From a virus: a DNA stretch of 29,765 nt. The notes beneath the pieces are model-generated. The model was not told the DNA's origin and did not search any database. It was given only the letters and a program-made list of their open reading frames with translations. The DNA lies in the IMG/VR virus record IMGVR_UViG_3300011116_001022, positions 1-29,765 of that record; one strand, given 5' to 3'. A program made the position numbers and the translations under genes. Positions 10,044-29,302 of this stretch are shown in pieces. Position 1 is the first letter of the stretch, and each line of letters opens with the position of its first letter.

Positions 10044-10069
10044 GAAGCACCGTAAACCGCTTTATCATC

Positions 10070-10124
10070 ACTGTGGCGTCACTGTGGCGTCACTGTGGCA
10101 TCACTGTGGCATCACTGTGGCATC
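10070..10124. repeat. Five 11-bp iterons
   Basis: Five uninterrupted direct repeats of ACTGTGGCRTC (units 10070-10080, 10081-10091, 10092-10102, 10103-10113, 10114-10124), with a degenerate sixth starting ACT. The 11-bp period places sites on one helix face. They end 50 bases before the -35 of the rightward promoter. Either origin iterons or activator/repressor sites would fit. Confidence 0.88.
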
Positions 10125-10174
10125 ACTATCGCGCCATACTCATTGGAAACAGCGCAGGTTAGCCTATAATTGCC

Positions 10175-11764: not shown

Positions 11765-12880
11765 GTGGCAAAGCGTCAGACTCTCCGACATCCAGTCTCG
11801 ATCACTTGGAGTGCAAACGGGTCGTTTTCGCTCGATTTGTCGAATAAGCCGCAGACCATTTGCGGCATGTGGTTGATCGTTCGTCCATCTTCCGTTAGCA
11901 CTACTGGGACTCCCGGCACTTATAACGACGGTTACGACCGTGTTATTTCGTCGATGACTCTTTCAGGAGCTGGACACACTTATTTCCAAGCTCTCGATAT
12001 GCGTACCTTCTACTACCACCAGCGACATTTCTTGCAGTGGTTGTCGCCGAAGCGGCCCGCTCCTGTCGCTGCATCACAAACCAATGTGTACGGGCCTCAG
12101 TACGCGTATTACATCCATTTCGGCGTTTCGCCTTTGGTCTTCAATGGAGCGACGGGGCGGCTTGACGAAAACCGATGGGATTTGTCCGGTGGCATCGCAC
12201 CCTCCACTGGCGGAAACCTGACCATCACCGGCAATTTCGGGGGCGCAAACGCAATCGGCAGTGCTGTGACGCTTAATGCCGCCACCATAGACGTTTATCT
12301 AGATTGTGTTCTGCCAGAAGCTGGTGACCCACTCGAAGCGTATTTGCCGCGAGCACTTCCGGCGTGGCTTCAGACTCAGCCATCTTTGGCCGGGACTACA
12401 AGCGCGTTTGGAACCTACGAAAACGTTCCGGTTGGCAGTCTTTTGCACTCGGTTACAGCAATGACGACGGCCGGTAGTGGGTCTCCTCGGAGTTCAACCG
12501 TTCTTAATTCTCTTCGGTTGCAGGACGTACTCGGGAGCAACACTGTCTTTGAATACGGACAGGGAGCGTTGGCAACAGATTCAATTGCGGCGGAAATCAT
12601 CACGCAGCAGGGAGACGTGTTCCCAGTCGCGGACGACGCTGGCGCGTCAACCATCGGCACGTTCACGCTTGGCACGCAGTCCGATTCAGGTTTGATCCAC
12701 CTTGACGTAGCGCAATATGCAGTGAGGGGTGATCCAATCTACGGCCTTGATCTCCGCCGCGTTGGTACAGGGGCGGTGCAGATTCAGTACGGCGTGCAGA
12801 CCACTTCATCTGCCGCACTCAACTTTTTCTACCGCAGGTACGATTTCAATTTGGCGCATCCGAGCAACGCCGGTAAGTAA
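11765..12880 (+). CDS. Candidate major capsid protein, double-jelly-roll type
   Basis: The product is 371 residues, rich in beta strands and with no signal or membrane segment. Two halves each show alternating hydrophobic strands: the first has SITWSANGSFSLDLS and a GNLTITGNFGGANAIGSAVTLNAATIDVYLD finish; the second runs from about residue 215 to a YGLDLRRVGTGAVQIQYG and ALNFFYRRYDF end. Length and strand pattern fit double-jelly-roll capsid proteins of tailless membrane-containing viruses (about 270-400 residues). The genome also encodes a matching type of packaging ATPase and no terminase. I recognise no specific DJR signature, so a different capsid fold remains possible. The GTG start has AAGGA upstream. 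A hairpin follows the gene. Confidence 0.6.
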   Translation: MAKRQTLRHPVSITWSANGSFSLDLSNKPQTICGMWLIVRPSSVSTTGTPGTYNDGYDRVISSMTLSGAGHTYFQALDMRTFYYHQRHFLQWLSPKRPAPVAASQTNVYGPQYAYYIHFGVSPLVFNGATGRLDENRWDLSGGIAPSTGGNLTITGNFGGANAIGSAVTLNAATIDVYLDCVLPEAGDPLEAYLPRALPAWLQTQPSLAGTTSAFGTYENVPVGSLLHSVTAMTTAGSGSPRSSTVLNSLRLQDVLGSNTVFEYGQGALATDSIAAEIITQQGDVFPVADDAGASTIGTFTLGTQSDSGLIHLDVAQYAVRGDPIYGLDLRRVGTGAVQIQYGVQTTSSAALNFFYRRYDFNLAHPSNAGK

Positions 12881-12899
12881 TCGCAACCAATCGAACAGT

Positions 12900-12930
12900 G
12901 CGGCTCATCGGCTTATGGCTGGTGAGCCGC
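12900..12930 (+). other. Hairpin after the capsid candidate gene
   Basis: GCGGCTCA (12900-12907) pairs perfectly with TGAGCCGC (12923-12930) and is followed by GTTGTATTTA. With a 15-base loop and a weak T-tract it could be a partial terminator or an mRNA stabilising stem that gives the capsid gene a higher transcript level than the spike genes. Confidence 0.5.
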
Positions 12931-12956
12931 GTTGTATTTAGGGTAGGATTGAAATT

Positions 12957-13727
12957 GTGAGTAGTTTGATTCAAACGCCACTGACCTATAAGGGACTTCC
13001 AACCCCTGCCTTTCAAGTTCCAGTTGCTCAAGCGTCGTCAAGTTCAACTATTGTTGATTTGCGTTCATATAATGCTGTCCATGTTGATGCATACATGAAT
13101 GCATCATCCGCAAGTTTCGACATCATTATTGAAGGAAGCAATTCGCAGTCTGGCGTATTTATCACAATGCCAGACCCGAATGCCGTAAAGACTGGCGTAA
13201 CTTCTAATACGACGTTTAATGTGCTTGCTGGTGCGGCGTTTGTCCGTGCACGAGTAACGAACGTTAGTGGTACGTTTGCAGTCGGTCAAGGAATCCAAAT
13301 CTATCTCACGCCATATGTGGCTGCTGGTAATACAAACGTCAATATCTCCAACGTTGCAAACCAGAACCTTTCACAAGTCAATGGGTCTGCATTTAGTCTT
13401 GGACAAGCACTCGCTTCGGCATCGCTGCCAGTCGTTGTTGCTGGCACAGGTACTGCAACAACGACGGCTATTCCAGTGGCTGTTGCAACAACCACGCTGC
13501 TTGCAGCTAATAGCGCACGACGTGGAGCGACTATCTATAACGACAGTTCTAGTCATTCGCATGTGAAGCTTGGAAGCGGAGCTACAGGATCAGATTTCAC
13601 TGTTGTCCTTCAAGCCGTCACCGTTAACGTTGGCGGGTATTACGAGGTTCCAGCCGGATATACGGGAATTGTGACGGCGTACGGCACAACCGCCGCTGGT
13701 AATTGGCGTGTGACGGAGTTGACCTAA
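12957..13727 (+). CDS. Beta-rich virion surface protein
   Basis: The product is 256 residues from a GTG start with AGGA about eight bases upstream. The N-terminal 120 residues form a beta-sandwich-like pattern (YNAVHVDAYMNASSASFDIIIEGSN, RARVTNVSG). The C-terminal 75 residues (ARRGATIYNDSSSH, VKLGSGA, GGYYEVPAGYTGIVTAYG, RVTEL) match a small beta domain common at the C-terminus of phage virion and fibre proteins. There are no transmembrane segments. As the first gene after the capsid candidate and before the long spikes it is probably a vertex, spike-base or decoration protein. Confidence 0.7.
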   Translation: MSSLIQTPLTYKGLPTPAFQVPVAQASSSSTIVDLRSYNAVHVDAYMNASSASFDIIIEGSNSQSGVFITMPDPNAVKTGVTSNTTFNVLAGAAFVRARVTNVSGTFAVGQGIQIYLTPYVAAGNTNVNISNVANQNLSQVNGSAFSLGQALASASLPVVVAGTGTATTTAIPVAVATTTLLAANSARRGATIYNDSSSHSHVKLGSGATGSDFTVVLQAVTVNVGGYYEVPAGYTGIVTAYGTTAAGNWRVTELT

Positions 13728-13728
13728 C

Positions 13729-14265
13729 ATGCCGTTAGCAAATCCTGTACGAGTAGGTCGTCAATCCACGCTGATTGCAACAGTTACCGTCTCAACAGCA
13801 GTTACATCAATTGTGTTTGCGAGTGTTCCAACCGGATACACTGATCTTTATGTTCGTTTTGACGCAATTACGAGTGATGCAAACAATCAGTATGTTCAAC
13901 TGCGATTTAATGGAGATACCGGAGCCAATTACGGAACAAAAGATTTACGTTGGGGGCCAACAAATAACAACGATGTTTACCCAACATCAACCTACATTAT
14001 TTGTGGTAGAGCCAATTCGAGCGCAATTGCTACCAGTCGTAGTTCTGGAGAAATGTATGTTTGGAATTATTTAAACACGACGTTTCATAAATGGACGCAG
14101 GGTCAACAGATAATGCCGCAAAGTCCAGCTGCTAGTGCGCCTGATGGATATTTGATTTACAGCAAATGGCACAACACTGCCGCAATTAGCACCGTTACCT
14201 ACACGATGTCTGCCGGAGACTTTGTTGCTGGTAGCGTATTTTCCTTGTACGGAGTCACTGTCTAA
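13729..14265 (+). CDS. Small spike protein with shared beta domain
   Basis: The product is 178 residues. LIATVTVSTAVTSIVFASVPTGYTDLYVRF opens a beta domain that recurs as the C-terminal 180 residues of the next protein (LIATVNVTVQYNGSINFTSIPQTYTDLLI), so the two are related by domain duplication. Similar domains occur at the ends of phage tail fibres and probably mediate trimerisation or receptor contact. The ATG follows the previous stop as TAACATG, with GGAG ten bases upstream. The stop overlaps the next start as TAATG. Confidence 0.75.
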   Translation: MPLANPVRVGRQSTLIATVTVSTAVTSIVFASVPTGYTDLYVRFDAITSDANNQYVQLRFNGDTGANYGTKDLRWGPTNNNDVYPTSTYIICGRANSSAIATSRSSGEMYVWNYLNTTFHKWTQGQQIMPQSPAASAPDGYLIYSKWHNTAAISTVTYTMSAGDFVAGSVFSLYGVTV

Positions 14266-16394
14266 TGACTGCGCCGGGACTCAACTCCTACCTCTATTCG
14301 TGGTACACGGTACGCGAGCTTGGAGCCTTAGGAAACGGCAACGATGACGACGCGCCTTCCATACAGCGGACGATGGATCGTGCATCCTCGAACGGTGGAG
14401 GTATGGTTATTGTTCCCGCGGGCACATACAGACTTGGAAGCTCCTTAAGTTGGACTGGTCTTACAAACGTTTGTGTATGGCTCAATGTTGGTGTGAGCTT
14501 TACGGGTTCGGGTTCGTTGCCATCGGCAACTGGAACCAACAATTCAATCTTTGATTTCCGTGCAGGGTCGCCAAGTGCTGGCACGTCGGTACTTGCGTCG
14601 TTGCCATTGGCATCGGATGGATTGGCAACACCAACCATTTCATTGCCAGCCGCTAACGCAATCACTCAAACAAACATCGTCACCGGCTCCGCAATTGTTG
14701 CCAGTGGATTGACGGGTACTGATCCCAATTCAACGCGATTTGTTGGGGGACGGTACAACGGCTGTCCTACTAGTGGCACATTTGTTACTGGTGATTTCGT
14801 TGTTGATTTAACTGGTAGTTTCTGGATTTGCACTCAAGGTAACTCAAGTGGTGGAGTTTGGGTGCAAGTCGCTGCCAATCAATATCCGGGGCCACCAGTA
14901 ACTGGTGTTTATGCTGCAACGCAACTATTGTCAACTGGTGGCACGACGCCGGTTATTTCGCTCGATCCTTCTGCCGCAATAGTCCAAACAAACACGATTG
15001 GTGGAACCAGCGTCCAAGCCACAGGTTTACCCGGAGCCACTGCGGGTGGTCGGTTCGTCGGCGCAACCAATAACGGCGCGCCTACTTCAGGATCGTTCCT
15101 TGCAGGTGATTTCATAATTGACAAGACAGCGGCTATTTGGATTTGCACGGAAAGCAGTTCGGTTGCAGCTCCCCAAGGCACATGGCAAATGCTGGCGGCC
15201 AGCGCGACTCCGGGCAACATTGTGACCGGAGTTCAAGCAAGTGCTCCGTTGTCATCTACTGCTGGCACAACGCCAACAATTTCTCTGCCACCAAATGGCG
15301 TGATAAATCAAACAGTTCCTATTAGTGCTTCCGCACTGGTTGCGAATGGTGTTCCCGGCGCAACTGCCGGTGCAGCATTTGTTGGCGGCACCGTAAATGG
15401 AAAGCCCACTTCCGGTACCGGGTATCAAAAGGGTGATTTCGTAATTGATCAAACAGGATCAATTTGGATTTGCACCGCAATTGCGCCAACCGGCGGCCCG
15501 CAGGGCACATGGGTGCAAATGGCGGGAAACACTGTCGTAGGTTCACCAGTCACTGGTGTTAGCGCAACGGCTCCAATCATATCGACCAGCGGAACAACGC
15601 CGACTATTTCGTGGGACAGCTCGTACGCTTTAACACAAACGGCTGTAATTACCGGCACGGCTTTGAAGCCGTCCGGTTTGACGGGCGCAACGGCAGCTAC
15701 TCGGTTTGTCGGAGGTACTGCGTCGTCCGCCCCGACATCAGGCACGTGGAGCGTTGGAGATTTTGTCGTCACACAAAACGCAAAAATATTTGTGTGCACG
15801 GTTGCCGGTACAGCACCGGCGGCAGTGTGGACTCAGCTTACTTCAGCTTCCAGCGGCGGCAGTGGTGCACTTACCCTTATTGCAACGGTAAACGTCACAG
15901 TTCAATATAACGGGTCGATCAATTTCACGAGTATTCCGCAGACGTACACAGATTTATTAATCACTGGTCGCCTGTTTGGTAATGGTACCGCTGTAGAAGA
16001 AGTCATGTTACGTGTTAACGGTGTAACAACAGGCTACCAAGGATATAACAGTAAAGTTCCGTCTACGGCAACGGCATTTACCCAGTCTCGCAACGCGACT
16101 ACCGGATGGAGGGCAATTTGCAATTGGGGAGGCAGTGGCACTACTAACGGCTGGGGACAATTTCAGGCAACAATACCTAACTACGCACGCACGGCGACGC
16201 CACATGTACAAACAATTTCGGCTACTTGGGACAATTACGGTACGAGTGCTCTTGACTCATATCGCGGTTGGTTTAATGGCTATCATGTTGCAATACCGTC
16301 TACATATAATGTGACCGATATATCAATTTTAGGAGCTACTGGTGTCACTGATTGGATGGTTGGCACGTACGTTCAATTGTGGGGTAGATCATGA
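14265..16394 (+). CDS. Modular receptor-binding spike with pectate-lyase-like cap
   Basis: The product is 709 residues. Residues about 10-105 carry the pectate-lyase-3/tailspike N-cap signature (VRELGALGNGNDDDAPSIQ, then GGGMVIVPAGTYRLGSSL). Residues 133 to about 531 are four repeats of 106-109 residues, each with RFVGGT-NG-PTSG, GDFVVDxTGSIWICT and VTGV-A..LSTxGTTPxIS. The last 180 residues are the beta domain shared with the preceding gene. The arrangement is that of an elongated trimeric adhesin or tailspike-like fibre. No catalytic depolymerase residues are evident, so binding rather than cleavage is more likely. It overlaps its neighbours as TAATG and ATGA. Confidence 0.85.
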   Translation: MTAPGLNSYLYSWYTVRELGALGNGNDDDAPSIQRTMDRASSNGGGMVIVPAGTYRLGSSLSWTGLTNVCVWLNVGVSFTGSGSLPSATGTNNSIFDFRAGSPSAGTSVLASLPLASDGLATPTISLPAANAITQTNIVTGSAIVASGLTGTDPNSTRFVGGRYNGCPTSGTFVTGDFVVDLTGSFWICTQGNSSGGVWVQVAANQYPGPPVTGVYAATQLLSTGGTTPVISLDPSAAIVQTNTIGGTSVQATGLPGATAGGRFVGATNNGAPTSGSFLAGDFIIDKTAAIWICTESSSVAAPQGTWQMLAASATPGNIVTGVQASAPLSSTAGTTPTISLPPNGVINQTVPISASALVANGVPGATAGAAFVGGTVNGKPTSGTGYQKGDFVIDQTGSIWICTAIAPTGGPQGTWVQMAGNTVVGSPVTGVSATAPIISTSGTTPTISWDSSYALTQTAVITGTALKPSGLTGATAATRFVGGTASSAPTSGTWSVGDFVVTQNAKIFVCTVAGTAPAAVWTQLTSASSGGSGALTLIATVNVTVQYNGSINFTSIPQTYTDLLITGRLFGNGTAVEEVMLRVNGVTTGYQGYNSKVPSTATAFTQSRNATTGWRAICNWGGSGTTNGWGQFQATIPNYARTATPHVQTISATWDNYGTSALDSYRGWFNGYHVAIPSTYNVTDISILGATGVTDWMVGTYVQLWGRS
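14661..15857 (+). repeat. Four in-frame modules of the spike gene
   Basis: Units begin at 14661, 14979, 15303 and 15630 (318, 324, 327 and about 228 bases; the last lacks the trailing part). Each encodes QT-x-I-x-G, a PTSGT-x-GDF block and an IWICT strand. Divergence at the DNA level shows they are not recent copies. Homologous recombination between units could change spike length. Confidence 0.8.
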
Positions 16395-16633
16395 AACTTG
16401 TTGTAAATTGTGAAACTGGCGAGCAAGTGTTTGTCCCGTTCACGGACGAAGAACGAGAGGAACACGAACAGCGTGCTAGCAATGCAATGCCAGAGAGTGA
16501 GTCTCCGCCGGTGCCGGACACCAGCGAACTGCTGGAGAGACTTGCACAACTGGAAGGACTTGTGCAGAAGCTTGCAACTGCGAAAACAACCAAGTCGAAA
16601 ACGGTAGTTGCAGCTTCTGAAGCGTCGGCATGA
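16391..16633 (+). CDS. Small acidic helical protein downstream of spike
   Basis: The product is 80 residues. MKLVVNCETGEQ with a VPFTDEEREEHEQR helix matches a small protein type often encoded just after phage fibre genes. The middle is Pro-rich and the C-terminal half a coiled coil (SELLERLAQLEGLVQKLATAK). The ATG overlaps the spike stop as ATGA. A chaperone or trimerisation role for the spike is a reasonable guess from position and coiled-coil content, but is not shown. Confidence 0.7.
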   Translation: MKLVVNCETGEQVFVPFTDEEREEHEQRASNAMPESESPPVPDTSELLERLAQLEGLVQKLATAKTTKSKTVVAASEASA

Positions 16634-17229
16634 GCAGCGATCAGTCATTCTGGGAGCCAATTACACGCACTGCCGCTGACTCTGCTGGCATTGATCCTAA
16701 CTTGTTTGTGGCATTAATTTACGTTGAAAGTAAGTTTGATCCAGAGATTATTAGTGATGCTGGCGCGGTGGGAATTGCCCAGCTAGTTCCACGTTGGCAC
16801 CCAACGGTAGATGGACGTGATCCGTACGCTTCTCTGATATATGCTGCGCGTCTGCTTAAATCCCATTTGGATGAATTCGGTTCGGAATCTTTGGCATTAG
16901 CGGCGTATAACGCCGGTGCCGGAGCTGTCTACGGAGCCGGTATGGCAATACCGGAAAATGGGGAAACTCCCCAACTGGTTCAAGCTGTGCTTGCGTACCG
17001 CGCCGGATTAGTCGGAGCAGTGTTACCCGCACCAATTGCCGCTCCGTCAACTTCGCCCCCCGATGTCACTCCAGCACCAGCACCAGCACCCGCACCCGAA
17101 CCAGTTCCCACGCCGATTGCCACAGCAATTGGCGCAGTAGTAGCTGGGGCGAAACTAGAAGCAATTGATAAACGGGTCGTGGTTGGCGTAAGTCTCCTCG
17201 CAGTTTTATTGTTACTATCGGACGACTAA
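16630..17229 (+). CDS. Membrane-anchored lytic transglycosylase (SLT domain)
   Basis: The product is 199 residues. Residues about 10-125 are an SLT/goose-lysozyme-like domain: catalytic Glu33 in YVESKFDP, then DAGAVGIAQLVP and ALAAYNAGAGAV. Such enzymes cleave the glycan strand of peptidoglycan. A Pro/Ala linker (about 130-160) leads to a C-terminal transmembrane helix ending LLLLSDD. This is the same build as the M23 protein at 1361: enzyme, proline linker, tail anchor. A virion enzyme fixed in the viral membrane and used during entry, like the transglycosylase of tectiviruses, is likely. It overlaps neighbours as ATGA and TAATG. Confidence 0.9.
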   Translation: MSSDQSFWEPITRTAADSAGIDPNLFVALIYVESKFDPEIISDAGAVGIAQLVPRWHPTVDGRDPYASLIYAARLLKSHLDEFGSESLALAAYNAGAGAVYGAGMAIPENGETPQLVQAVLAYRAGLVGAVLPAPIAAPSTSPPDVTPAPAPAPAPEPVPTPIATAIGAVVAGAKLEAIDKRVVVGVSLLAVLLLLSDD

Positions 17230-17405
17230 TGAAAAATCCGTTGGTTATTTTCGGAGTTGCGTTTGTTGCAATGGTTGTTGCGTCAAGAGTGCTCTTGAAG
17301 CCTGCATCGTCAAGCATCGTTGGCGCAGCATTGGGAAACCCGTCCGGGTCGGTTCCATTTGCAATTGGCGCAACAGCGATGGGGCCAATCGGAGGAGTCT
17401 TCTAA
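17229..17405 (+). CDS. 58-residue membrane protein
   Basis: The product is 58 residues, MKNPLVIFGVAFVAMVVASR at the start giving one clear transmembrane helix, then a Gly/Ala/Ser-rich tail ending GGVF. Start and stop overlap both neighbours (TAATG at each end), which strongly supports translation. The N-terminal KNP before the helix is reminiscent of the basic-NP motif in other small membrane proteins here, but lacks the Arg. It is probably a virion membrane protein or an anchor for the adjacent spike proteins. Confidence 0.75.
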   Translation: MKNPLVIFGVAFVAMVVASRVLLKPASSSIVGAALGNPSGSVPFAIGATAMGPIGGVF

Positions 17406-18106
17406 TGCCAAGCGTTTCGGATTGGTTTTCCGGTTGGAGAGTGATTACAGATTTCGGAGCTGATCCAACGGGAAATAGCGATTCCAGTGTTCCCCTAACG
17501 CGGGCAATTGCGTCGTTGCCAGTGGGAGGAATGATCATTGTTCCAAGTGGAACATTTCGGTTCACCGAACCAGTCGTGTGGGGAACGTCTACGAATGTGA
17601 TGGTGTGGTTTGCTGGTGGAGCTTCGCGGATTGGGGACAATAGCGCATTTACAGCGAGTGGCACGGGAAATATCATTGTCACTTGGAACGGTTCGAATGT
17701 TCCACTTACCAGTGTAAACGCTGCACAAGCATTACAGAAAACAAGCCCCAATAATATCAGCGCATACTGTGACGGCAGGAGGGCAAGTTTTGCATTGACA
17801 ACAAACCAAACGAGAAACCAACGGATTTACAATTCCATAGACTGCCAAGTAGTAATTAACGGCAGTGTTCAACAGCCATACTTGCAAGAGTCTTCGCTTC
17901 CGTGGATAAGTCCGATTGATCAAGCTGGTCAATTCAGAATGGTCGTTCGTCCAATTAACGGAGTATCACAAAGCGTTCTTGTAATGAATCGTCCACCATC
18001 ACGCGGCGCGAATGTGCAGATACAACTGCCAAATGACAACGGTACAACAAGCACGAGCGTAAGACGTTATCCATTGCCGCCACGTTTCATTGCACTGGGA
18101 GTATAA
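17405..18106 (+). CDS. Second pectate-lyase-capped spike protein
   Basis: The product is 233 residues. WRVITDFGADPTGNSDSSVPLTRAI followed by GGMIIVPSGTFRFTEP is the same pectate-lyase-like N-cap as in the 709-residue spike, but without the repeats or C-terminal beta domain. A beta-rich C-terminal half follows (VVINGSVQQPYLQESS, FRMVVRPINGVSQSV). It may pair with or replace the longer spike. The ATG shares a base with the previous stop (TAATG). No enzymatic residues are evident. Confidence 0.75.
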   Translation: MPSVSDWFSGWRVITDFGADPTGNSDSSVPLTRAIASLPVGGMIIVPSGTFRFTEPVVWGTSTNVMVWFAGGASRIGDNSAFTASGTGNIIVTWNGSNVPLTSVNAAQALQKTSPNNISAYCDGRRASFALTTNQTRNQRIYNSIDCQVVINGSVQQPYLQESSLPWISPIDQAGQFRMVVRPINGVSQSVLVMNRPPSRGANVQIQLPNDNGTTSTSVRRYPLPPRFIALGV

Positions 18107-18109
18107 AAA

Positions 18110-21100: not shown

Positions 21101-21250
21101 ACTGGTTCCGCCGGTGTGATACAAGCCGTTCAATCAGCAACCATCGCTACAGTGTCGGTTTCGCAAACGCTTACAAGTCAATCAACGTGGTTCATTTCTA
21201 ACAGTCCGTCGCTTATCGGGCGCATATCATGGACGGAGGCGCAAGCGTAA
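18110..21250 (+). CDS. 1046-residue fibre-like virion protein
   Basis: The product is 1046 residues and is the largest in the window. It is Thr/Ser/Gly/Val-rich and beta-dominated throughout. At about residues 100-135, FFDPVGKQRVSTPQALIDTDFEYG-QPTKWES matches a motif that I know from large structural proteins of marine tailed phages. Two segments resemble a repeated beta unit (MTVATATAHGLTVGDHVFVTG and ITVTCKTPHGLSASGSSQIIISG), each a PHGL-type turn typical of phage baseplate and fibre proteins. There is no membrane segment. It is probably the main spike or fibre shaft. An uninterrupted frame of over 3.1 kb and tight coupling to both neighbours make the gene certain; the exact role is not. 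Confidence 0.85.
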   Translation: MAKHVILEAYTFVPATSTITVIGKAIRAEQLLLITNVTQGVVLYNFSDPSLGATITTSFASGTESTTIVLTGYSTTAMLSTHKLSILVEETYQEIAPAETFFDPVGKQRVSTPQALIDTDFEYGIQPTKWESIGLLVNRPSAYYDATSPVNSAVTGITLNTMTYATANSQTTVTLIFSATVASQISVGQPIFVIGSLDPSCDGWQIADTVSTTTVTYKLIGTPVVASPVLDSLKTTVFAGTFYTGAAIPLASSGSLVASSSSVMTVATATAHGLTVGDHVFVTGTSGTTGTTCNGPWVVSSIESTSQFRITTNASGAALTPGTATLSSLSTTLYSRNPGYVTHRAYDGGVQFTNQIAAHGYTVVRQTRRYFRYQSGKGIQFSTGSILKPALTVDTISAGGTTVGSTITVTCKTPHGLSASGSSQIIISGVNEAGYNGTYVVATTPNILQLTVLATSTLASTTATASAVTGSYQVTPGQWYGSKNRLGMFDSQNGFFFEHDGLNLYAVKRSSTSQISGTGAVDISSNPSQINGTSTQFSKQLSPGDTIVIRGSTYQVLQILSDTVMFISPNYRGATVSNVASNLIISKTVDTRYAQSTWNIDRCDGTGASGFNVDLTKMQMFYADYSWYGAGAIRFGFKNNRGEIVYAHRIVNNNVNTEAYMRSGNLPARYETTTVPPITTLAATLSSSATTGATLTVADATSFPPSGTVFLSTATGGSGGALAQVEYISYSARSGNVLTIASRNTIGVTTSAQTWTYSATGPIQVQLHAPSQASTVSHWGSSVMMDGRYDDDKSLVFNTGMAAPAVWTINATRRPIISLRVSPSVDNGFVGSLLGSREIVNRMQMVLRQMDGFTTSSTAFKVDLILNGAVSSGTWANIGGSSLAQYIIHSTGTETISGGENVFSFFTNSGGVTQQELNLVRDLGNSILGGGTSSVSVRYPDGPDVMTMCATPVSLVYLSSSGNGTFTQSTTVTTFSNSVLTNAMVGATIYLGSPGSVTGSAGVIQAVQSATIATVSVSQTLTSQSTWFISNSPSLIGRISWTEAQA

Positions 21251-21867
21251 TGTCGCGACAGTCTGATAATTTGCCGGTTTATGTCGGTTTGGCCGGTGCA
21301 GTGTTTTTGTTCTCTCCTTGGGGGGCAACGACGCGCGACTCTATCGTTAAAGCGTTTAAGTCGGCGGTTCCCCCGGCAGCGGGAACCACTCCCCCGGCAG
21401 CGGGAACCACTCCCCCGGCAGCGGGAACCACTCCACCGGCAGCGGGAACCACTCCACCGGCAGCGGCTCCCATCAGCCGACCGGATACGCCAACGTACAA
21501 GGCTTGGCGTGCACGTCTTCCAACCACGACCTTGAACGAGCAAATCTGGGTTCAGCGATCTACCGATGGTCGTTGGGTATATGTTGCGTCTCCATCCGAG
21601 TTTGCGTCCTACGGCATACAGGCAAATATGGCGAACGTCACCGATATCCCTTGGGGTTCGCAACGGGCATTTACGGTGTTCGGCGGGAATGTGGCGTATC
21701 CCGCGTCTGAATGGGTTCGCAGCGATACGGCCACCGGCGTATTTGGTGGATATCCACAAGTACCTGCTGATATCACGCAAGCCTTGAAGGACTCATATAT
21801 GGCGGGCAAGCTGGTGCCAGTCGGCCCCGTTGGATACGCCGTTCTCAAGCAGCAGGGCGCAATTTAA
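21250..21867 (+). CDS. N-anchored protein with proline repeats
   Basis: The product is 205 residues from the ATG at 21250, which overlaps the preceding stop as TAATG and has GGAGG ten bases upstream; an ATG at 21229 would add seven residues. A transmembrane helix (about residues 9-25, LPVYVGLAGAVFLFSPWG) is followed by tandem PPAAGTT repeats (about 41-72) and a globular domain with aromatic beta strands (QIWVQRSTDGRWVYVA, AFTVFGG). The build suggests a membrane-anchored stalk that projects a domain through the capsid, perhaps attaching the preceding fibre. Confidence 0.75.
   Translation: MSRQSDNLPVYVGLAGAVFLFSPWGATTRDSIVKAFKSAVPPAAGTTPPAAGTTPPAAGTTPPAAGTTPPAAAPISRPDTPTYKAWRARLPTTTLNEQIWVQRSTDGRWVYVASPSEFASYGIQANMANVTDIPWGSQRAFTVFGGNVAYPASEWVRSDTATGVFGGYPQVPADITQALKDSYMAGKLVPVGPVGYAVLKQQGAI
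21370..21465 (+). repeat. 21-bp tandem repeats encoding PPAAGTT
   Basis: Four full 21-base units (CCCCCGGCAGCGGGAACCACT and near-identical copies) and a partial fifth encode the proline stalk. High identity suggests recent expansion and probable length variation between strains. Confidence 0.9.
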
Positions 21868-23202
21868 GTGGCAACGTCGGACGCTGTCGCAATCGGAGCT
21901 TTGGCACTTCTGTGGTTGTCGCTTAGGAAGCCAGCCAGCACTGCCAGTCCTAATGGCACCGATCCAAATGCGCCGACTTTGCCGCCGCCAATTGGTTCAA
22001 ACTGGTACGGCCAAAGGCCATATACCGACATTTCACCGCCCAATGCAACAAATCCAATTGCTCCGGTTGTGCCTGTAGTTCCGCCCGTTGTGCCGGTCGT
22101 GCCGGTCGTGCCGGTCGTGCCGGTCGTGCCACCCACTCCGCCTGTGACACCTCCAATAACGCAGCCGCCATTTCCCGGCGAAACCACGCCAATTTATCCT
22201 CCTCCCCCTGATTATGGCGGTGGATACAATCCGTTCGTACCGTCGCCAAATCCTATTTACGACGGCCCCGGAATGCTCCCCCCGGACTCACCGATATACA
22301 TTCCGCCAAACGTTACTCCGTACGTTCCGCCGGAAGTTCCGCCATACGTTCCTCCGACTGCTTCACCAATCTACACTCCTCCGACCGATCCGGGATATGG
22401 CCCGCCCTACACCGATCCCGTTTACGACGGCCCCGGAATGCTTCCGCCGGTGGCACCTACGTCACCGCCAGACGTTCCGCCATACGTTCCGCCGGGATAC
22501 GAAGACCCTCCGTACGGTGAGCCGCCTTACGTTGAGCCTGTAAATCCCACGCCAACGCCGGAATATCCGCCCTACATTGAACCGTACGTGCCACCGTCAC
22601 CAAGTACCCCGGCTCCACCGCCTCCGGTTGATTATGGCGGTGGATACAATCCATATGTTCCCCCGTCGCCGTCGCCTGTGTACGACGGCCCCGGCATGTT
22701 GCCGCCACCCGCGGAAACATATACGCCTCCAGAAGTTTCACCGTCGCCTGTGTACGACGGCCCCGGCATGTTGCCGCCACCCGTGGAAGCGTATATCCCT
22801 CCCTATGTCGCGCCGCCGATTGATTTGTGGCAGCCGCCAACTGGCGTGTACGACGGAACAACGGTGCCAATTCTGCCGCCGCCGGTGTACGTATATGAGC
22901 CGCCCCCGGAATATGTTCCCCCGGTTGATTATGGCGGTGGATACAATCCATTTGTTCCCCCAGCACCCGTCTACGAGCCGCCGCCCGCACCCGTTTACGA
23001 GCCGCCCCCATATACGCCGCCGAACTATCAGCAGCCGTACGAGCCGCCGCCCGCACCCGTCTACGAGCCGCCGCCCGCACCCGTGTACGAGCCGCCGCCC
23101 GCACCCGTCTACGAGCCGCCGCCATACGAGCCGCCCGCATACGAGCCACCCGCATACGAGCCGCCAAGCTGGGACTCTTTCTGGGGAGGATGGGGATGGT
23201 AG
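21868..23202 (+). CDS. Proline-rich membrane-anchored stalk protein
   Basis: The product is 444 residues. A GTG start directly follows the previous stop. After an N-terminal hydrophobic helix (about residues 5-18, AVAIGALALLWLSLRK) almost the whole chain is Pro/Tyr/Val-rich. Recurring elements include VYDGPGMLPP (five forms), DYGGGYNP(F/Y)VP (four forms) and VYEPPPAP near the end. It closes with an aromatic SWDSFWGGWGW. No globular domain is visible. Such polyproline chains are extended and stiff, fitting a stalk that crosses the capsid or wall, with aromatic residues for adhesion. No family is recognised. Confidence 0.8.
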   Translation: MATSDAVAIGALALLWLSLRKPASTASPNGTDPNAPTLPPPIGSNWYGQRPYTDISPPNATNPIAPVVPVVPPVVPVVPVVPVVPVVPPTPPVTPPITQPPFPGETTPIYPPPPDYGGGYNPFVPSPNPIYDGPGMLPPDSPIYIPPNVTPYVPPEVPPYVPPTASPIYTPPTDPGYGPPYTDPVYDGPGMLPPVAPTSPPDVPPYVPPGYEDPPYGEPPYVEPVNPTPTPEYPPYIEPYVPPSPSTPAPPPPVDYGGGYNPYVPPSPSPVYDGPGMLPPPAETYTPPEVSPSPVYDGPGMLPPPVEAYIPPYVAPPIDLWQPPTGVYDGTTVPILPPPVYVYEPPPEYVPPVDYGGGYNPFVPPAPVYEPPPAPVYEPPPYTPPNYQQPYEPPPAPVYEPPPAPVYEPPPAPVYEPPPYEPPAYEPPAYEPPSWDSFWGGWGW

Positions 23203-23235
23203 CTCTATTGCCTGAAGCTGTTTTGGAGTTGCAGA

Positions 23236-23475
23236 ATGAATCTTGATGCTCAGCTCTTGCGCGAAATACTGTCGGCACATCCGCAGGCAGAAGCAATTGA
23301 CCCGAAAACCGGACAGGTATTTTTTGGTTCCCAGCGGATGGGAAACTATTACGTACCGGGCCATTCAACGCGGAATAACCATTACGGCCAGAATCCTGCA
23401 ACTGCGCCCGGAGGAGTGCCGGTCGAACGCACAATAAAACGATGGCAATGTGGTTTGCCATCAATTGGAGTGTAA
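23236..23475 (+). CDS. Small hypothetical protein
   Basis: The product is 79 residues from an ATG with GGAG about eight bases upstream. A helical N-terminus (DAQLLREILSAHP) is followed by a Gly/Asn/Tyr-rich middle (GNYYVPGHSTRNN) and a basic segment near the end. There is no membrane helix and no known family. It is encoded between the stalk gene and a small membrane protein gene, so a soluble virion or assembly factor is possible. Confidence 0.65.
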   Translation: MNLDAQLLREILSAHPQAEAIDPKTGQVFFGSQRMGNYYVPGHSTRNNHYGQNPATAPGGVPVERTIKRWQCGLPSIGV

Positions 23476-23479
23476 AACC

Positions 23480-23713
23480 GTGCCGTGGGAACAAGTGGCT
23501 ACTGGAACATCATTCACCACACGACCAAACTTGCCGGAGCTTGACCCAAGCAGCAGGTATAAAATGGTTATTGACTTAACCCCTAATGCGCCAGACTGGG
23601 TATTTGACTCATTCATTTCTACAATTAGTGGGCTTCTGTGGCCTTTTCCAATTGTTGCCAGCGTGTTTAGGGAAAACTCGTCAATCGTCATTGAATGGGT
23701 AGCCAAGACCTAA
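23480..23713 (+). CDS. Small membrane protein
   Basis: The product is 77 residues from a GTG at 23480 with GGAG ten bases upstream; an upstream in-frame ATG would overlap the previous gene by 26 bases and lacks a site. A polar N-terminal half is followed by a hydrophobic stretch (about residues 47-66, STISGLLWPFPIVASVF) and a short charged end. The stop overlaps the next start as TAATG. No family is recognised. Confidence 0.65.
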   Translation: MPWEQVATGTSFTTRPNLPELDPSSRYKMVIDLTPNAPDWVFDSFISTISGLLWPFPIVASVFRENSSIVIEWVAKT

Positions 23714-23976
23714 TGCCAGTATTTGCAATTCCAGCTTTGGTGTGGACTCTCCTTGGAAGTGTTGTTCTTCTGGGTTTGGGAGTTTATTTTCTTAAATACA
23801 CTTTGTATGTCGACAAACCAGCAATGATTGGTTCTGGTGTATTGCCAGCTCCTGTGCCCGGAACCGCTACTGATCCTTCCGGCGGACTCACTTTGCCCGG
23901 CGTCGGCACCCTTGGCAGTGGAGCACTGCTAATTGGAGTTGGCGCAATCGTTTTATTGTTTTTGTTGGAGGATTAA
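23713..23976 (+). CDS. Two-helix membrane protein with LLED C-terminus
   Basis: The product is 87 residues. It has an N-terminal transmembrane helix (about residues 6-28), a polar loop with Pro/Gly (GVLPAPVPGTATDPSGG), and a C-terminal helix ending IVLLFLLED. The final hydrophobic helix with an acidic pair at the very end is shared with the M23 (LLALLED) and SLT (LLLLSDD) proteins, suggesting a common membrane-sorting or insertion end. The ATG shares a base with the previous stop; an upstream ATG at 23695 is less likely. The function is unknown. Confidence 0.75.
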   Translation: MPVFAIPALVWTLLGSVVLLGLGVYFLKYTLYVDKPAMIGSGVLPAPVPGTATDPSGGLTLPGVGTLGSGALLIGVGAIVLLFLLED

Positions 23977-23977
23977 C

Positions 23978-24466
23978 ATGGCTTATCGTATGCGTCGCAA
24001 TCCGGGCGGAACTTCGGCAATTACGGGACGGAATATTGCGATTGTAATTGGAGCGTACGCCGTCTACAAAGCAGCACAAGGCGGAGCGTTGGGACTGCCA
24101 GCGCAATCACTAACCAACGCTCTTGGTGAAGCTGGCAACGCCATTTCTCGTGGCACAGCGGAAACCATTGACATTTTTTACAAGCGTGCTCCCGTGCCAG
24201 TAACTACGCCAAGTGGCACGCCCCCCGCGGCTGTTGGAACGGGCGCAGGAACAGTGACCGGAGCAAACAGGCTTAATCCCCCGGTTCCGGGAACCGCAGT
24301 TGACCTTGGTGCTTACGATCCGTCCGCCGGAGGATTTGCGTGGGACGGACAAAACGTCTTCACAATTGCGGAGCACATGATTATTGGCACCGCCCAAACT
24401 GCCGTCGAAGCGGCAGCAGCGGCGAAATTGTGGTACGCCAATAACGGGCGGTATTTGGTGTCATGA
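23978..24466 (+). CDS. RRNP-motif membrane protein with shared C-terminal domain
   Basis: The product is 162 residues from an ATG with GGAGG six bases upstream. MAYRMRRNPGG at the N-terminus precedes a transmembrane helix (about residues 18-34, NIAIVIGAYAVYKAAQGG). A Pro/Gly/Thr linker (about 70-105) leads to a C-terminal domain (VDLGAYDP...WDGQNVF...GTAQTAVEAAAAAKLWYA) that is clearly repeated in the protein at 24777. The basic motif here lies before the helix, not after it. It is a probable virion membrane protein with an exposed domain. Confidence 0.8.
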   Translation: MAYRMRRNPGGTSAITGRNIAIVIGAYAVYKAAQGGALGLPAQSLTNALGEAGNAISRGTAETIDIFYKRAPVPVTTPSGTPPAAVGTGAGTVTGANRLNPPVPGTAVDLGAYDPSAGGFAWDGQNVFTIAEHMIIGTAQTAVEAAAAAKLWYANNGRYLVS

Positions 24467-24780
24467 GGAAGCGAAGACGTTCACCAATTGATCCAGATAT
24501 AGAGTGGTTGACTGGAATCCTTCGCCGGAATCCGACGACCCAACACGCTGAAATGGCTGTAAGCCAACTTGTATCGCGGCATGGTGCCGATCATGTACAT
24601 CGGCTCCTTGCAATTGAATACGAACGCGCAGACGGATCAAGATGGCGACATGAAGCCGGAGATCGCGGCGACGGAGTCGCTCGTGAAACGCGTCCGGAAT
24701 GGCTGGTGGTTGAGCCGGGAGAGTCGCCGCAACTCACTGGCCCGATGAAGTGGCAAGACGGTAGGGGACTCGTGGGATGA
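24463..24780 (+). CDS. Soluble RRNP-motif protein
   Basis: The product is 105 residues. The N-terminus is very basic (MRKRRRSPIDPD), ILRRNP is at about residues 18-23, and a helical segment (AEMAVSQLVSRHGADHVHRLLAIEYERAD) follows, then a charged Gly/Glu/Pro-rich tail. There is no membrane helix. Start and stop overlap both neighbours as ATGA. The function is unknown; it could be a nucleic-acid- or ATPase-contacting partner because of the basic N-terminus. Confidence 0.75.
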   Translation: MRKRRRSPIDPDIEWLTGILRRNPTTQHAEMAVSQLVSRHGADHVHRLLAIEYERADGSRWRHEAGDRGDGVARETRPEWLVVEPGESPQLTGPMKWQDGRGLVG

Positions 24781-25109
24781 AAATCGCATCAGTCGTCGCA
24801 GTCGGAATTGGATTAGTTGCGTATACGGCGTACGCCGCATCAAAGAAAACTCCAGCTCCAGCAGCCCCCGGAGCACCCGCAGCACCCGGAACTACAACGC
24901 CACCAGTCGTTGTCCCTTGGGTAGACCTTGGTACGACAATGCCACGGTTTCCCGGAGTGTTTTGGAATCCCAACAACGGACAGGTAATCAATGTTGAGGG
25001 AGGGACTCTTCTTGCGTCTGGAGCGTTTCCGACTGGCACCGCGCGCACAGCCGCTGAAGCTGTCACCGTTGCACGAGTCTTCTTCTACGGCGTAACTCCA
25101 AGCGACTGA
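24777..25109 (+). CDS. N-anchored protein sharing a domain with 23978 gene
   Basis: The product is 110 residues. An N-terminal transmembrane helix (MKIASVVAVGIGLVAYTAYA) is followed by an Ala/Pro linker (about residues 25-45) and a domain starting WVDLG, with FWNPNNGQVINV and GTARTAAEAVTVARVFFYG. This aligns along its length with the C-terminal domain of the 23978 protein, so the two are paralogues. It lacks the RNP motif but has SKKTP after the helix. ATGA overlap with the previous gene. It is probably exposed on the inner or outer face of the viral membrane. Confidence 0.78.
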   Translation: MKIASVVAVGIGLVAYTAYAASKKTPAPAAPGAPAAPGTTTPPVVVPWVDLGTTMPRFPGVFWNPNNGQVINVEGGTLLASGAFPTGTARTAAEAVTVARVFFYGVTPSD

Positions 25110-25121
25110 GGATATTTGAAC

Positions 25122-25430
25122 GTGCCTGCAACTTGGAAGCAATTTTCAACGTCCGTATTGCGATCACTGCCAGTTGATGCCACGTTTACGGATCGACAGC
25201 GTGCACTAAAAGCAGCCGGTAAGTTGTGGCGCGGTGAAGTCTCCTTGAAACGCAATCCACAGAACTCGGAAATTGCGGAGTGGAAACGCAGTAGCGTTGA
25301 TCCCGAAGACGGCGAATTAGTTAACTACAAACGAACACAAGTCGACCCATTTGTGGTGTATGGCCTGTATGGTTTAGCGGCCGCCGGTTTGTATTTGCTT
25401 TGGAAACAACGAGAGATATCGTACGAATGA
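25122..25430 (+). CDS. KRNP-motif protein with C-terminal helix
   Basis: The product is 102 residues from a GTG with GAGGAT eight bases upstream; a TTG at 25116 is too near the site. The N-terminal part (ATFTDRQRALKAAGKLWRGEVSLKRNP, motif at about residues 41-44) is basic and helical. The middle is polar and the C-terminus carries a transmembrane helix (about 77-95, VVYGLYGLAAAGLYLLWK). Here the RNP motif is far from the membrane helix, so the motif is not simply part of a helix boundary. ATGA overlap with the next gene. The function is unknown. Confidence 0.75.
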   Translation: MPATWKQFSTSVLRSLPVDATFTDRQRALKAAGKLWRGEVSLKRNPQNSEIAEWKRSSVDPEDGELVNYKRTQVDPFVVYGLYGLAAAGLYLLWKQREISYE

Positions 25431-25594
25431 ATGCCATAAAACGATATTTTCCAAAAGTATCACGTAAAAAAGTTGTTCCGTATGCGATTGGCGTTGGCAT
25501 GTTGTGGGCGTTGATGAAACCGAAACGATTTCCACGGTTCAGAACTGCCAGTCCAGATATTGCGGTGTACGACGCAGTGGGGAAACAAGTCTGA
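25427..25594 (+). CDS. 55-residue membrane protein
   Basis: The product is 55 residues: a basic N-terminus (MNAIKRYFPKVSRKK), one transmembrane helix (VVPYAIGVGMLWALM), a basic segment KPKRFPRFR, then a short polar tail. Both ends overlap neighbouring genes (ATGA, TGATG), which fixes the start and supports translation. The KRFPRF segment occupies the place of the RNP motif of its neighbours but lacks NP. It is a probable small virion membrane protein. Confidence 0.72.
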   Translation: MNAIKRYFPKVSRKKVVPYAIGVGMLWALMKPKRFPRFRTASPDIAVYDAVGKQV

Positions 25595-25887
25595 TGGCTA
25601 AGAGACGACGCTACAAGCGAAATCCGCTTGACGCCAAACATCCGCTGCTTTGGGCGGGTGCAGCCGCAGTGGCGTACTGGGTATACAAACGAGCAAATAG
25701 GACAATCTCTTCTGGCCCGATGGCGCAATACACAACGCCTCGAACCGACCTTGGAAGTGCTCCCATCGCTCCGACTCCACCGGCTTACATGGTCGCCAAC
25801 GCGCAGCGGGCAAGAACTCCGGGATATATTGGGATTCCGTACGGTGCCCCAACGTGGAACGGCACCTCGTGGGAACAGGCAGTCTGA
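25594..25887 (+). CDS. KRNP-motif membrane protein before the ATPase
   Basis: The product is 97 residues. MAKRRRYKRNPLDAKHP precedes a transmembrane helix (about residues 18-31, LLWAGAAAVAYWVYK). A Pro/Ala/Thr-rich tail with a short GYIGIPYGAPTWNGTSWE end follows. The start overlaps the previous stop as TGATG, and the stop overlaps the ATPase start in the same way. Immediate coupling to the packaging ATPase makes a membrane partner at the packaging vertex plausible, as in tectiviruses where small membrane proteins mount the ATPase; this is inference from order alone. Confidence 0.78.
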   Translation: MAKRRRYKRNPLDAKHPLLWAGAAAVAYWVYKRANRTISSGPMAQYTTPRTDLGSAPIAPTPPAYMVANAQRARTPGYIGIPYGAPTWNGTSWEQAV

Positions 25888-26894
25888 TGATTGGCGGCGT
25901 TGGCGGATTGGCGAAATTGGTTGCAGCGGCGAAGATGGCTCCCGGAGTGCTCGCCGCAACGTCTGGAGACGTAAACACGGCTGATAGGTTAATCCGTGAG
26001 CTGGGGCCACAAGCGGCATCCATCGTCCTTGGTGCGGAGGGAGCATCGCTGTTTAATAGCGCGTTGCAATTCGCCGACGCCAAAGGATGGACGGTGCAGC
26101 GAGATTTGGATTTACAAGCGGGTGTGACTGCGTATCACGCCGGTTGCACCGCATGTGCCCAGTGGTACAACGCTGCCGGGGAGCGTCGAGTCGTCCGGGA
26201 TATTGTCGGATTGGACGGCGGCTTGGTGTTTGTGCTGGGAGTCCGGAAATCAGGAAAGACAGCATTGGCGGCGCGGCTTTGTGAGCTTTGGGAGCGTAAG
26301 ACCTACGCTTGGGGAATCTCACAGGACAAACTTCCCGATGGCTGGAATGAACTGCGCGTTCCGGTGGATTTGAAACCGATCCGTACCAAGCGCAAATCGG
26401 TCGTTCAGGTGATTGACGTTGATGAAGAGTTTGAAGACGATGAACCTGATGACCTTGACTCCCGTCCACGAGATTGGTTAGAGAACGCGCTGCCGCAGCG
26501 CAGCGCACTTATCGTGGATGATGCTGGCATTGTGCTTGATTCAGCGTCGTCGGGCGGAGGAGCCGTCAAAGCATTCAAACATTTGGTGCAGATTATTCGT
26601 CACTTGAATATTAATGCAGTCGTAAACGTGCAGTACGCTGCTGCCGTTACCAAATATTCGTTGGATGCCGATGCCATTTTTTTGAAACCTCCGCCAATGA
26701 TGTATCAATCAATTGAGCGGCCAGAGGTTATACCGTTCATCGAAGAAGCATTGCCGATGTGGAATGGTCTTACTGAACAGCAAAAGAAAAACCACGCTTG
26801 GGTAATATCTTCTGAATATCGCGGGCCAGTTCACATTCAGTTACCAACATTCTGGACTGATTCGCTGTCATATAACAAGCGTCGTGGTAACTAA
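25887..26894 (+). CDS. FtsK/HerA/A32-like genome packaging ATPase
   Basis: The product is 335 residues. Walker A is G118-VRKSG-K124-T125 after a hydrophobic strand (GGLVFVLG). Walker B is SALIVDDAG, and the following FKHLVQIIRHLNINAVVNVQYA and DADAIFLKPP fit the sensor and Arg-region pattern of viral packaging ATPases of the HerA/FtsK superfamily that move DNA into preformed capsids. The N-terminal 110 residues form a helical, partly hydrophobic domain with a HxxCxxC-like stretch (YHAGCTACAQW), possibly for membrane or metal binding. The ATG shares a base with the previous stop (TGATG). It is the hallmark protein supporting a tailless virus. Confidence 0.82.
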   Translation: MIGGVGGLAKLVAAAKMAPGVLAATSGDVNTADRLIRELGPQAASIVLGAEGASLFNSALQFADAKGWTVQRDLDLQAGVTAYHAGCTACAQWYNAAGERRVVRDIVGLDGGLVFVLGVRKSGKTALAARLCELWERKTYAWGISQDKLPDGWNELRVPVDLKPIRTKRKSVVQVIDVDEEFEDDEPDDLDSRPRDWLENALPQRSALIVDDAGIVLDSASSGGGAVKAFKHLVQIIRHLNINAVVNVQYAAAVTKYSLDADAIFLKPPPMMYQSIERPEVIPFIEEALPMWNGLTEQQKKNHAWVISSEYRGPVHIQLPTFWTDSLSYNKRRGN

Positions 26895-26896
26895 CA

Positions 26897-27379
26897 GTGA
26901 CTACTAGAAGCGAAACACAGCTTGCAGCATGGGTGCTACTTAGTATTTCTCAGACTGCAAATGTGTATGGGCAAATGGGTTCTAATCTAGCTCAGATTCG
27001 CACCAGTAGTCAAACACGCGAACAATGCGAAATACATCGACTCTCATACAAACCAGCAGCATCAATTGCCCTTTTGCAAGCCGCGGCACTGTCAGCAATT
27101 GCCGGTAGTCCGCTTCCGCTTCTCGCTTGTGCCACCACTATTTCCGTTCTAATAAACATCTATGAACATCAGATGCCAACGGAATACCGTAAAGAGCCAA
27201 TTAGTGCTTTGCTTGGTAGAAGCTCGCTGAAAACAGACTCGGCACAACTTGGATTAAGCCGACCGTATCAATCCGTTGTCAGTCCGTTTCTTCCAGTGCA
27301 ACGGTTACCGGGGCCACCGCCCATGAATCCTCGTATGTCAATACAATTTGCTGCAAAAACAAAGTCGGAACTGTTTTGA
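26897..27379 (+). CDS. Membrane protein downstream of the ATPase
   Basis: The product is 160 residues from a GTG two bases after the ATPase stop, without a strong ribosome site, so probably coupled. A polar helical N-terminus (about residues 1-50) is followed by a long hydrophobic region (about 54-92, IALLQAAALSAIAGSPLPLLACATTISVLINIY) that can hold one or two membrane helices. The C-terminal part is polar and ends PPPMNPRMS...KSELF. No family is recognised. It may be part of the packaging vertex. Confidence 0.75.
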   Translation: MTTRSETQLAAWVLLSISQTANVYGQMGSNLAQIRTSSQTREQCEIHRLSYKPAASIALLQAAALSAIAGSPLPLLACATTISVLINIYEHQMPTEYRKEPISALLGRSSLKTDSAQLGLSRPYQSVVSPFLPVQRLPGPPPMNPRMSIQFAAKTKSELF

Positions 27380-27380
27380 T

Positions 27381-27938
27381 ATGAACTTTGCTGGAGCTTT
27401 AGTACTTGGTGCAGGATTATGGTGGTTAAGCGGCAAGACTAGTTCAACGCAAGTTGGAGTAAAGCGCAATCCTGCTGCGTCTCCAGAAGAAATTGAAAAT
27501 CGCAAACGAGAGTTAGCGGTATTTGATGAACGATTGGCGCAACAACGCCGCCGGTTGGCGAACGAACGAAGTGCCATTGACTCTCGCAACATTGCGAGGT
27601 ATGGACGACGCTTGTTGATCGTTGAGAGTACACCGGAATTGTTAGCGGCACAGGATGCGATCAAACGGCTCGAAGTGGCACGCCGAAACGCCTTCAATGG
27701 CTTATCACTAGCTTTGCAACGTAATCCAGTCCAATCACTTGACAAGCTTGAAGCAAAGACTCGAAAACTGGCAATGGACGCGCGAGGGCCATCAGCCAGT
27801 GTCGCGTCAAAGGCAGCATATCGACGGTCGCTTGATCAGTTGATGGCAGCTCGAATTGATGCTGGCGTGCAGCGCACCTTGTTTGACATCGAACCTGCAA
27901 ACAACACTCAACGGGCTTTACCGGGACTTTTCGAATGA
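27381..27938 (+). CDS. N-anchored coiled-coil protein with KRNP motif
   Basis: The product is 185 residues. The N-terminal transmembrane helix (ALVLGAGLWWLSGK) is followed by KRNP at about residues 30-33, then a long charged coiled coil. A second QRNP at about residue 114 is followed by another helical unit (LDKLEAKTRKLAMDARG) like that after the first motif, so the protein may be an internal duplication of the anchor-motif-helix plan without the second anchor. The ATG at 27381 is chosen because the upstream frame overlaps the previous gene and the short form aligns with paralogues. Confidence 0.78.
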   Translation: MNFAGALVLGAGLWWLSGKTSSTQVGVKRNPAASPEEIENRKRELAVFDERLAQQRRRLANERSAIDSRNIARYGRRLLIVESTPELLAAQDAIKRLEVARRNAFNGLSLALQRNPVQSLDKLEAKTRKLAMDARGPSASVASKAAYRRSLDQLMAARIDAGVQRTLFDIEPANNTQRALPGLFE

Positions 27939-29280: not shown

Positions 29281-29302
29281 TTGCCGTCAAGGACAGACAT
29301 AC

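Follow-up and report, generated by a model that had tools for sequence, protein, structure and literature searches.

The DNA analysed here, referred to as the window, is an entire IMG/VR record (IMGVR_UViG_3300011116_001022, hereafter G000; 29,765 bp). We read it, with a probability of roughly 0.65, as the near-complete genome of a tailless, icosahedral, membrane-containing bacterial virus with circular double-stranded DNA (dsDNA) and a capsid protein that we infer to be of the double jelly roll (DJR) type. This reading draws on the conservation of a 371-residue capsid candidate, the profile match of a packaging ATPase, the lack of portal, HK97 capsid and large terminase (TerL) genes, DJR capsid proteins as the top Foldseek hits, a lytic transglycosylase (SLT) whose family matches PRD1 P7, and N-terminal transmembrane (TM) leaders. 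Using the 371-residue protein as the query in IMG/VR, we found four relatives at 78-82% identity (G001, 25,235 bp; G002, 31,306 bp; G003, 26,897 bp; G004, 23,288 bp) in which the genes near the capsid gene and the ATPase are ordered as in the window. G001 and G004 are close to one another (about 93-95% DNA identity), and the group therefore amounts to four distinct lineages. Together, the window and its relatives are probably a new lineage, at family level, of tailless phages that contain a membrane.

Identical ends of 123, 123 and 127 bp in G001, G002 and G004, respectively, indicate that these three sequences are probably circular, closed at the assembler k-mer length, and complete. The roughly 30-kb size proposed by a first-pass annotation, which had been made from the letters of the window without database searches, is therefore real: the relatives with end repeats span 23.3-31.3 kb. 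The window itself is linear, has no terminal repeats and cuts a gene at either end, so that it is near-complete and unclosed; judged by how genes are ordered in the relatives with end repeats, its ends would join. Its genes fall into two blocks. The minus-strand block (about 2486-9906) contains a sigma factor, a replication initiator (Rep), a possible nuclease, a possible annealing protein, a helix-turn-helix (HTH) regulator and an M23-like peptidase. The plus-strand block, which begins at 10237 and, should the ends join, would continue past them to about 2407, contains the capsid candidate, spikes, cell-wall enzymes, membrane proteins and the ATPase (Table 1).

The 371-residue protein is the candidate major capsid protein (MCP). 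The first-pass annotation had singled out a beta-rich open reading frame (ORF) of this length, and it exists at 11765-12880 on the plus strand, with mostly strands in its predicted secondary structure. At 78-82% identity in four relatives it is more highly conserved than any other protein of the group, which fits the expectation for an MCP, and its start, MAKRQTLRHP, is kept in all four. It had no match in Pfam, PHROG, NCBIfam or PDB sequences, and no sequence relatives were found outside the five-genome group. An AlphaFold2 model generated from five close sequences has a beta-rich N-terminal half, and all ten top rows of a Foldseek search against the PDB were DJR capsid entries (Singapore grouper iridovirus, PBCV-1 and Melbournevirus; E 0.08-0.26), a count inflated by the many rows that are chains of one entry. 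Against BFVD, seven named DJR capsid proteins stood in the top 23 rows (best E 4.6e-3, probability 0.89), with the STIV capsid in 23rd place; the matches listed included no HK97 capsid protein by name. An internal repeat test of the two capsid halves gave a signal not above shuffles. The model thus suggests a jelly roll in the N-terminal half; the size of the protein, its position and the company it keeps may point to a second. We consider the DJR assignment likely, if unproven.

The second principal component is a P9/A32-like packaging ATPase, with Walker A (GVRKSGKT), Walker B (ALIVDDAG) and then a conserved Q. Its profile matched a profile of the PRD1, PM2, P23-77, SNJ1 and SSIP-1 ATPases over the stretch from Walker A to the Q, Walker B included (E 9.5e-5). 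The match spans 127-128 columns and scored 38.6 in a repeat run, or 38.1 without SSIP-1; the highest score among 60 column shuffles was 23.3, and reversed profiles gave 10-15. Single sequences were weakly separated (packaging ATPases 17-28, T7 control proteins up to 23.6), so it is the profile comparison that carries the evidence. It supports the assignment and upholds the earlier call of a HerA/A32-type ATPase, matching the P9-type ATPases of PRD1, PM2, P23-77 and SNJ1 well above shuffles. A PDB sequence search with the ATPase profile returned chance matches only (bromodomains).

Models for portal (PF04860), HK97 capsid (PF05065) and TerL (PF03354 and PF04466) matched none of the five genomes, and the controls were positive. 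PHROG scans of large ORFs assigned no head-tail connector, tape measure or baseplate to a core gene. The lack of tailed-phage packaging genes reported for the window thus holds for the four relatives as well, and the discovery of terminase or portal genes, which had been named as the outcome that would overturn the proposal, did not occur in any of the five genomes; this favors the tailless reading. With no match to the HK97 capsid, portal and large terminase models, the group does not classify as Caudoviricetes.

Both tailspike-like proteins (ORFs at 14265-16394 and 17405-18106) start with a pectate-lyase-like motif typical of tailspikes (PF12708), in agreement with the tailspike-like caps previously described. 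The larger is 53% identical over its full length in G002, and its N-terminus occurs in all relatives. Many Synechococcus T4-like phages have virion structural proteins to which the 1046-residue fibre is about 40% identical over 90% of its length, and in one of them, Synechococcus phage ACG-2014h, the homologue adjoins other virion structural genes. G002 has a 77% identical fibre, and G001, G003 and G004 have none; present in two of five genomes, the fibre is therefore a swappable module. The fibre is thus real, as the first-pass annotation had it, with the amendment that it is exchangeable, common to T4-like cyanophages and found in one of four relatives. The SLT family profile matches PRD1 P7 at 3.3e-9.

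Several results weigh against a DJR virus. The AlphaFold2 model is of low confidence (pLDDT 37, pTM 0.44), and none of its Foldseek matches, in the PDB or BFVD, fell below E 0.001. Modelled alone, the C-terminal half did not fold (pLDDT 32). In hhalign, the capsid profile did not score above shuffles against the PRD1, PM2, STIV, FLiP, P23-77, SNJ1 and SSIP-1 proteins; the PM2 P2 capsid, for example, scored 15.5, where shuffles averaged 13.9 and went up to 17.8. VIA-align gave a Z of 6-7 over approximately the first 230 residues, a value that we did not use as proof because cohesins, TssK and integrins score equally. The controls for the ATPase profile were limited to shuffles and reversed profiles. 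No match to an integrase was found in the window. Structure prediction and fold search, the check originally proposed for the 371-residue protein, gave a jelly-roll-like N-terminal half with DJR proteins as its top, non-significant hits; the C-terminal half stayed unfolded, and a second jelly roll could not be shown.

The jelly-roll-like model in the N-terminal half only would also suit a single-jelly-roll tailless membrane phage resembling Helvetiavirae, in which the 371-residue protein would combine a single jelly roll with an additional domain and have a second, smaller capsid protein as its partner. P23-77 is circular, and SSIP-1 is circular, large and reported with two capsid protein types. 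The neighbors of the capsid gene offer a poor partner: the 174-residue protein upstream is a hydrophobic TM protein, the 256-residue protein downstream is 50-55% conserved compared with about 80% for the capsid candidate, and no second beta-rich protein of equal conservation lies beside the 371-residue gene. Since DJR proteins are also the top Foldseek matches, we regard this arrangement as unlikely.

Improbable, too, is a tailless virus or capsid-bearing plasmid with a shell fold outside the jelly-roll lineages and an independently recruited P-loop ATPase. The capsid candidate lacks sequence relatives, its structural signal is weak, and unrelated beta-sandwiches also reach a VIA-align Z of 6-7, all of which such an entity would explain; nevertheless, the top hits from two independent structure libraries are mostly DJR capsid proteins, the ATPase profile aligns with that of packaging ATPases from jelly-roll viruses, and the operon content (spikes, SLT and TM proteins) fits tailless membrane phages. 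The tailspike-like proteins and the fibre in common with cyanomyoviruses would also fit a tailed phage, or a satellite of one, whose head and packaging genes have diverged strongly. This reading is largely refuted and very improbable, and we rejected it on the failure of portal, HK97 and TerL models to match five genomes, three of which have circular-type ends, and on the lack of connector, tape measure and baseplate assignments to core genes in PHROG scans of large ORFs.

Many late proteins carry an N-terminal TM leader, and a recurring feature of the plus-strand ORFs is the tripeptide RNP. It occurs within the first 60 residues of 11 of 34 plus-strand ORFs, compared with 0.36 expected from shuffling, an approximately 30-fold enrichment, and of 0 of 15 minus-strand ORFs. 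Each of the four relatives has 7-12 such ORFs. Elsewhere, we counted none in PRD1, PM2, P23-77 or FLiP, four in SSIP-1, three in SNJ1, and one each in STIV and T7. The ATPase gene and ORF 26897 lie inside the main RNP-leader region at 23978..29765. Among the leaders, at least three types are found repeatedly: one with a TM segment (GGALWWLSRxNRNP), one that is basic (KRSKVTGRFLK...RRNP) and a third (MHYPGCxRAHxHGAAG...RRNP). Comparison of leaders identified 162 similar pairs (z above 5, from 40 shuffles each), with no detectable similarity between the bodies in 138, which is an upper bound on leader exchange because some pairs are genuine orthologues whose bodies are short or evolve fast. Eight of 12 window bodies carry a net positive charge (+4 to +14) after RNP. 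It is likely that RNP leaders would anchor or sort internal virion proteins. A bolder proposal, which we advance tentatively and think possible at less than even odds, is that the group would consist of DJR phages with large circular genomes, forming a new lineage at order or family level, and that the RNP-ending leaders, exchangeable among about a dozen late proteins, would be a shared virion-targeting or processing signal. To our knowledge, no shared signal of this type has been described in tailless phages.

Table 1. Features of the window, in order of position.
Feature	Position	Strand	Evidence and remarks
Remaining RNP-leader cluster	1..2407	+	ORFs 40, 369, 729, 2027, plus ORF 1022-1354 and the M23 gene
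Conserved ORF	1022-1354	+	Within the 1..2407 region
M23 endopeptidase	1361..2011	+	PF01551 8.9e-14; proline-rich linker, C-terminal TM segment; in all relatives
ECF-like sigma factor	3094..3723	-	PF04542 (sigma-70 region 2) 5.9e-7
Replication initiation protein	4761..5702	-	phrog_9474 8e-24; homologues in G002, G003
Possible single-strand annealing/recombination protein, 243 aa	5702..6433	-	Sequence comparison; function not confirmed
Second M23-like peptidase, lysis candidate	8732..9478	-	PF01551 2e-4 (below curated cut-off); phrog_7767 3.8e-6
HTH regulator	9580..9906	-	PF13560 5.3e-7, PF01381 2.3e-6; in all relatives
11-bp direct repeat array, 5.6 copies	10066..10127		TRF score 110; between HTH gene and late operon
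First late-operon gene, 286 aa	10237..11097	+	About 51-58% in all relatives
Hydrophobic protein, 174 aa	11214..11738	+	Directly upstream of capsid gene; 68-72% in all relatives; TM segment
Candidate MCP, 371 aa	11765..12880	+	Beta-rich, no TM segment; N-terminal half jelly-roll-like; top conservation
256-aa protein	12957..13727	+	Downstream of capsid gene; 50-55% in all relatives
Putative spike-associated protein, 178 aa	13729..14265	+	49% in G002; weak phrog_3639 (minor tail protein) 0.017
Tailspike-like spike, 709 aa	14265..16394	+	PF12708 1.3e-6; phrog_2234 1.2e-8
Lytic transglycosylase (SLT), candidate entry enzyme	16630..17229	+	PF01464 1.9e-19; C-terminal TM segment
Second tailspike-like protein, 233 aa	17405..18106	+	PF12708 9e-7; 42% in G002
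Fibre/virion protein, 1046 aa	18110..21250	+	phrog_5838 1.2e-247
Main RNP-leader region	23978..29765	+	ORFs 23978, 24463, 25116, 25504, 27348, 27935, 28960, 29147
P9/A32-like packaging ATPase	25854..26894	+	Start probably nearer 25890 by alignment with relatives; 70-76% in relatives

Nearly every gene listed by the first-pass annotation is real, and the ORFs that it named are present, including the Rep and sigma factor genes, both on the minus strand. The sigma factor ORF also matched many sigma-factor models below their own cut-offs (best 8.2e-9). The exception is recombination: the 243-residue ORF put forward for this role had no Pfam or NCBIfam match and a PHROG match at chance level only, and the Campylobacter phage proteins that it resembles (45% over 54%) are annotated as hypothetical. 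Among the genes flanking the capsid gene, homologues of the 174-residue protein in G002 and G003 open with an RNP leader. The C-terminal 70 or so residues of the 256-residue protein (185-255) are 42% identical to Caudoviricetes (tailed-phage) contigs, and this protein is a candidate vertex or spike-base component. A separate 444-residue proline-rich protein (21868-23202) contains several types of tandem repeat (PPAPVYEP, VYDGPGMLPP) after hydrophobic segments; no homologue was detected in the four relatives.

Rep initiators are found in the window, G002 (26191-27114) and G003 (720-1805), whereas G004 has a 783-residue primase/helicase (6108-8459) with a 96% identical ORF in G001 (8139-10493); judging by these genes, the replication module is swapped. 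No DNA polymerase was found in PHROG scans of the main ORFs of the window and the large ORFs of the relatives, which have Rep or the primase/helicase instead. Arrays of 11-bp repeats with other sequences occupy the equivalent intergenic site in G002 (30431-30480) and G003 (9252-9283), and none was reported near the HTH gene of G004; the array is a candidate operator or replication origin. Homologous integrases are present in all four relatives, identified by PHROG scans of large ORFs in G002 (22086-22880), G003 (5270-6109) and G004 (720-1469) and by a homologous ORF in G001 (15184-15930), and for this reason the lineage is probably temperate. The window may either lack an integrase or have one in an unsequenced gap. 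The PHROG scans of the relatives also identified DNA methyltransferases in both G002 and G003, along with a RusA-type resolvase and a PAPS reductase in G003. The PAPS reductase gene, at G003 (L015) 2723-3526, has counterparts annotated in the tailless phages P23-77 and SSIP-1.

The sigma-70 match and peptidoglycan enzymes argue for a bacterial host. GC content is 51.8% in the window compared with 59-63% in the relatives, a difference that may reflect different hosts. Scans of bacterial and archaeal genome collections identified neither a host nor a provirus, and scans of viral contigs with the capsid protein, capsid fragments, ATPase and leader peptides as queries returned only the same four relatives. 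The ATPase was unmatched in phage and plasmid collections, and the capsid candidate in phages. The suggestion of an undescribed lineage accordingly stands in having four relatives and no close relative in these collections, and is tempered by the precedent for large tailless prokaryotic viruses.

Among known systems, SSIP-1 is a tailless membrane phage with a circular dsDNA genome of 43,788 bp, an annotated sigma factor, integrase and structural ATPase, and a similar HTH regulator (1.9e-9), but its capsid and ATPase have no detectable sequence similarity to those of the window and it is reported with two capsid protein types. PRD1 (Tectiviridae) has a P9-type ATPase profile and the transglycosylase homologue P7, and is the model of a tailless, spike-bearing membrane phage; it differs in its linear 14.9-kb genome, its terminal protein and protein-primed DNA polymerase, neither of which was found in the window, and its unrelated capsid sequence. 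Inverted terminal repeats, a trait of Tectiviridae, were found in none of the five records, three relatives having direct end repeats. PM2 (Corticoviridae, Vinavirales) likewise combines circular dsDNA, a P9-type ATPase and a capsid gene with spike and membrane genes after it, but is 10 kb, with another Rep family and undetectable capsid sequence similarity. P23-77 and SNJ1 (Helvetiavirae) have circular dsDNA and packaging ATPases within the profile match, but two single-jelly-roll capsid proteins, genomes of 16-17 kb and no capsid sequence similarity. The Synechococcus T4-like phages (Kyanoviridae), tailed myoviruses of 187-200 kb, have only the 1046-residue fibre gene in common with the window.

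For a DJR virus of this kind we propose the following cycle, in which we infer every step beyond gene identity. The 371-residue protein would form the shell around a membrane vesicle, with spikes and fibre at the vertices binding the host. SLT and M23 enzymes would open the cell wall, after which circular DNA would enter and be replicated by Rep (window, G002 and G003) or the primase-helicase (G001 and G004), with optional integration by the integrase in the relatives. The HTH protein next to the 11-bp repeats is the probable regulator of both divergent gene blocks, and the sigma factor may steer the transcription of phage genes. Late expression would be followed by capsid assembly around a membrane vesicle, and the ATPase would pump DNA into the shell before lysis. 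RNP-leader proteins would probably sit on the inner membrane, touching the DNA.

Prokaryotic DJR virus-like genomes from metagenomics are about 10-15 kb (PMC5894146), and the Jorvik genome is 8,762 bp (PMC10589892). A table of studied DJR-lineage viruses includes the circular SSIP-1 at 44 kb ('single jelly roll?') and the linear HHIV-2 at 30 kb (single jelly roll) (PMC6260650). A size of about 30 kb, which the first-pass annotation set at two to three times that of most described bacterial DJR viruses, is thus not unprecedented for a tailless prokaryotic virus, SSIP-1 and HHIV-2 having come before, but would be unusual for a DJR member. Described bacterial DJR genomes are mostly about 9-15 kb, and a circular lineage of 23-31 kb, if true, widens the range of tailless phages. 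Its traits would include a capsid protein without detectable relatives in sequence, replication modules that can be swapped, and a fibre in common with T4-like cyanophages; the fibre would show that a likely host-binding part is exchanged between tailed and tailless viruses. RNP leaders offer a way to test how virion proteins are sorted. Because such viruses would escape scans built on known hallmark genes, their numbers may be underestimated.

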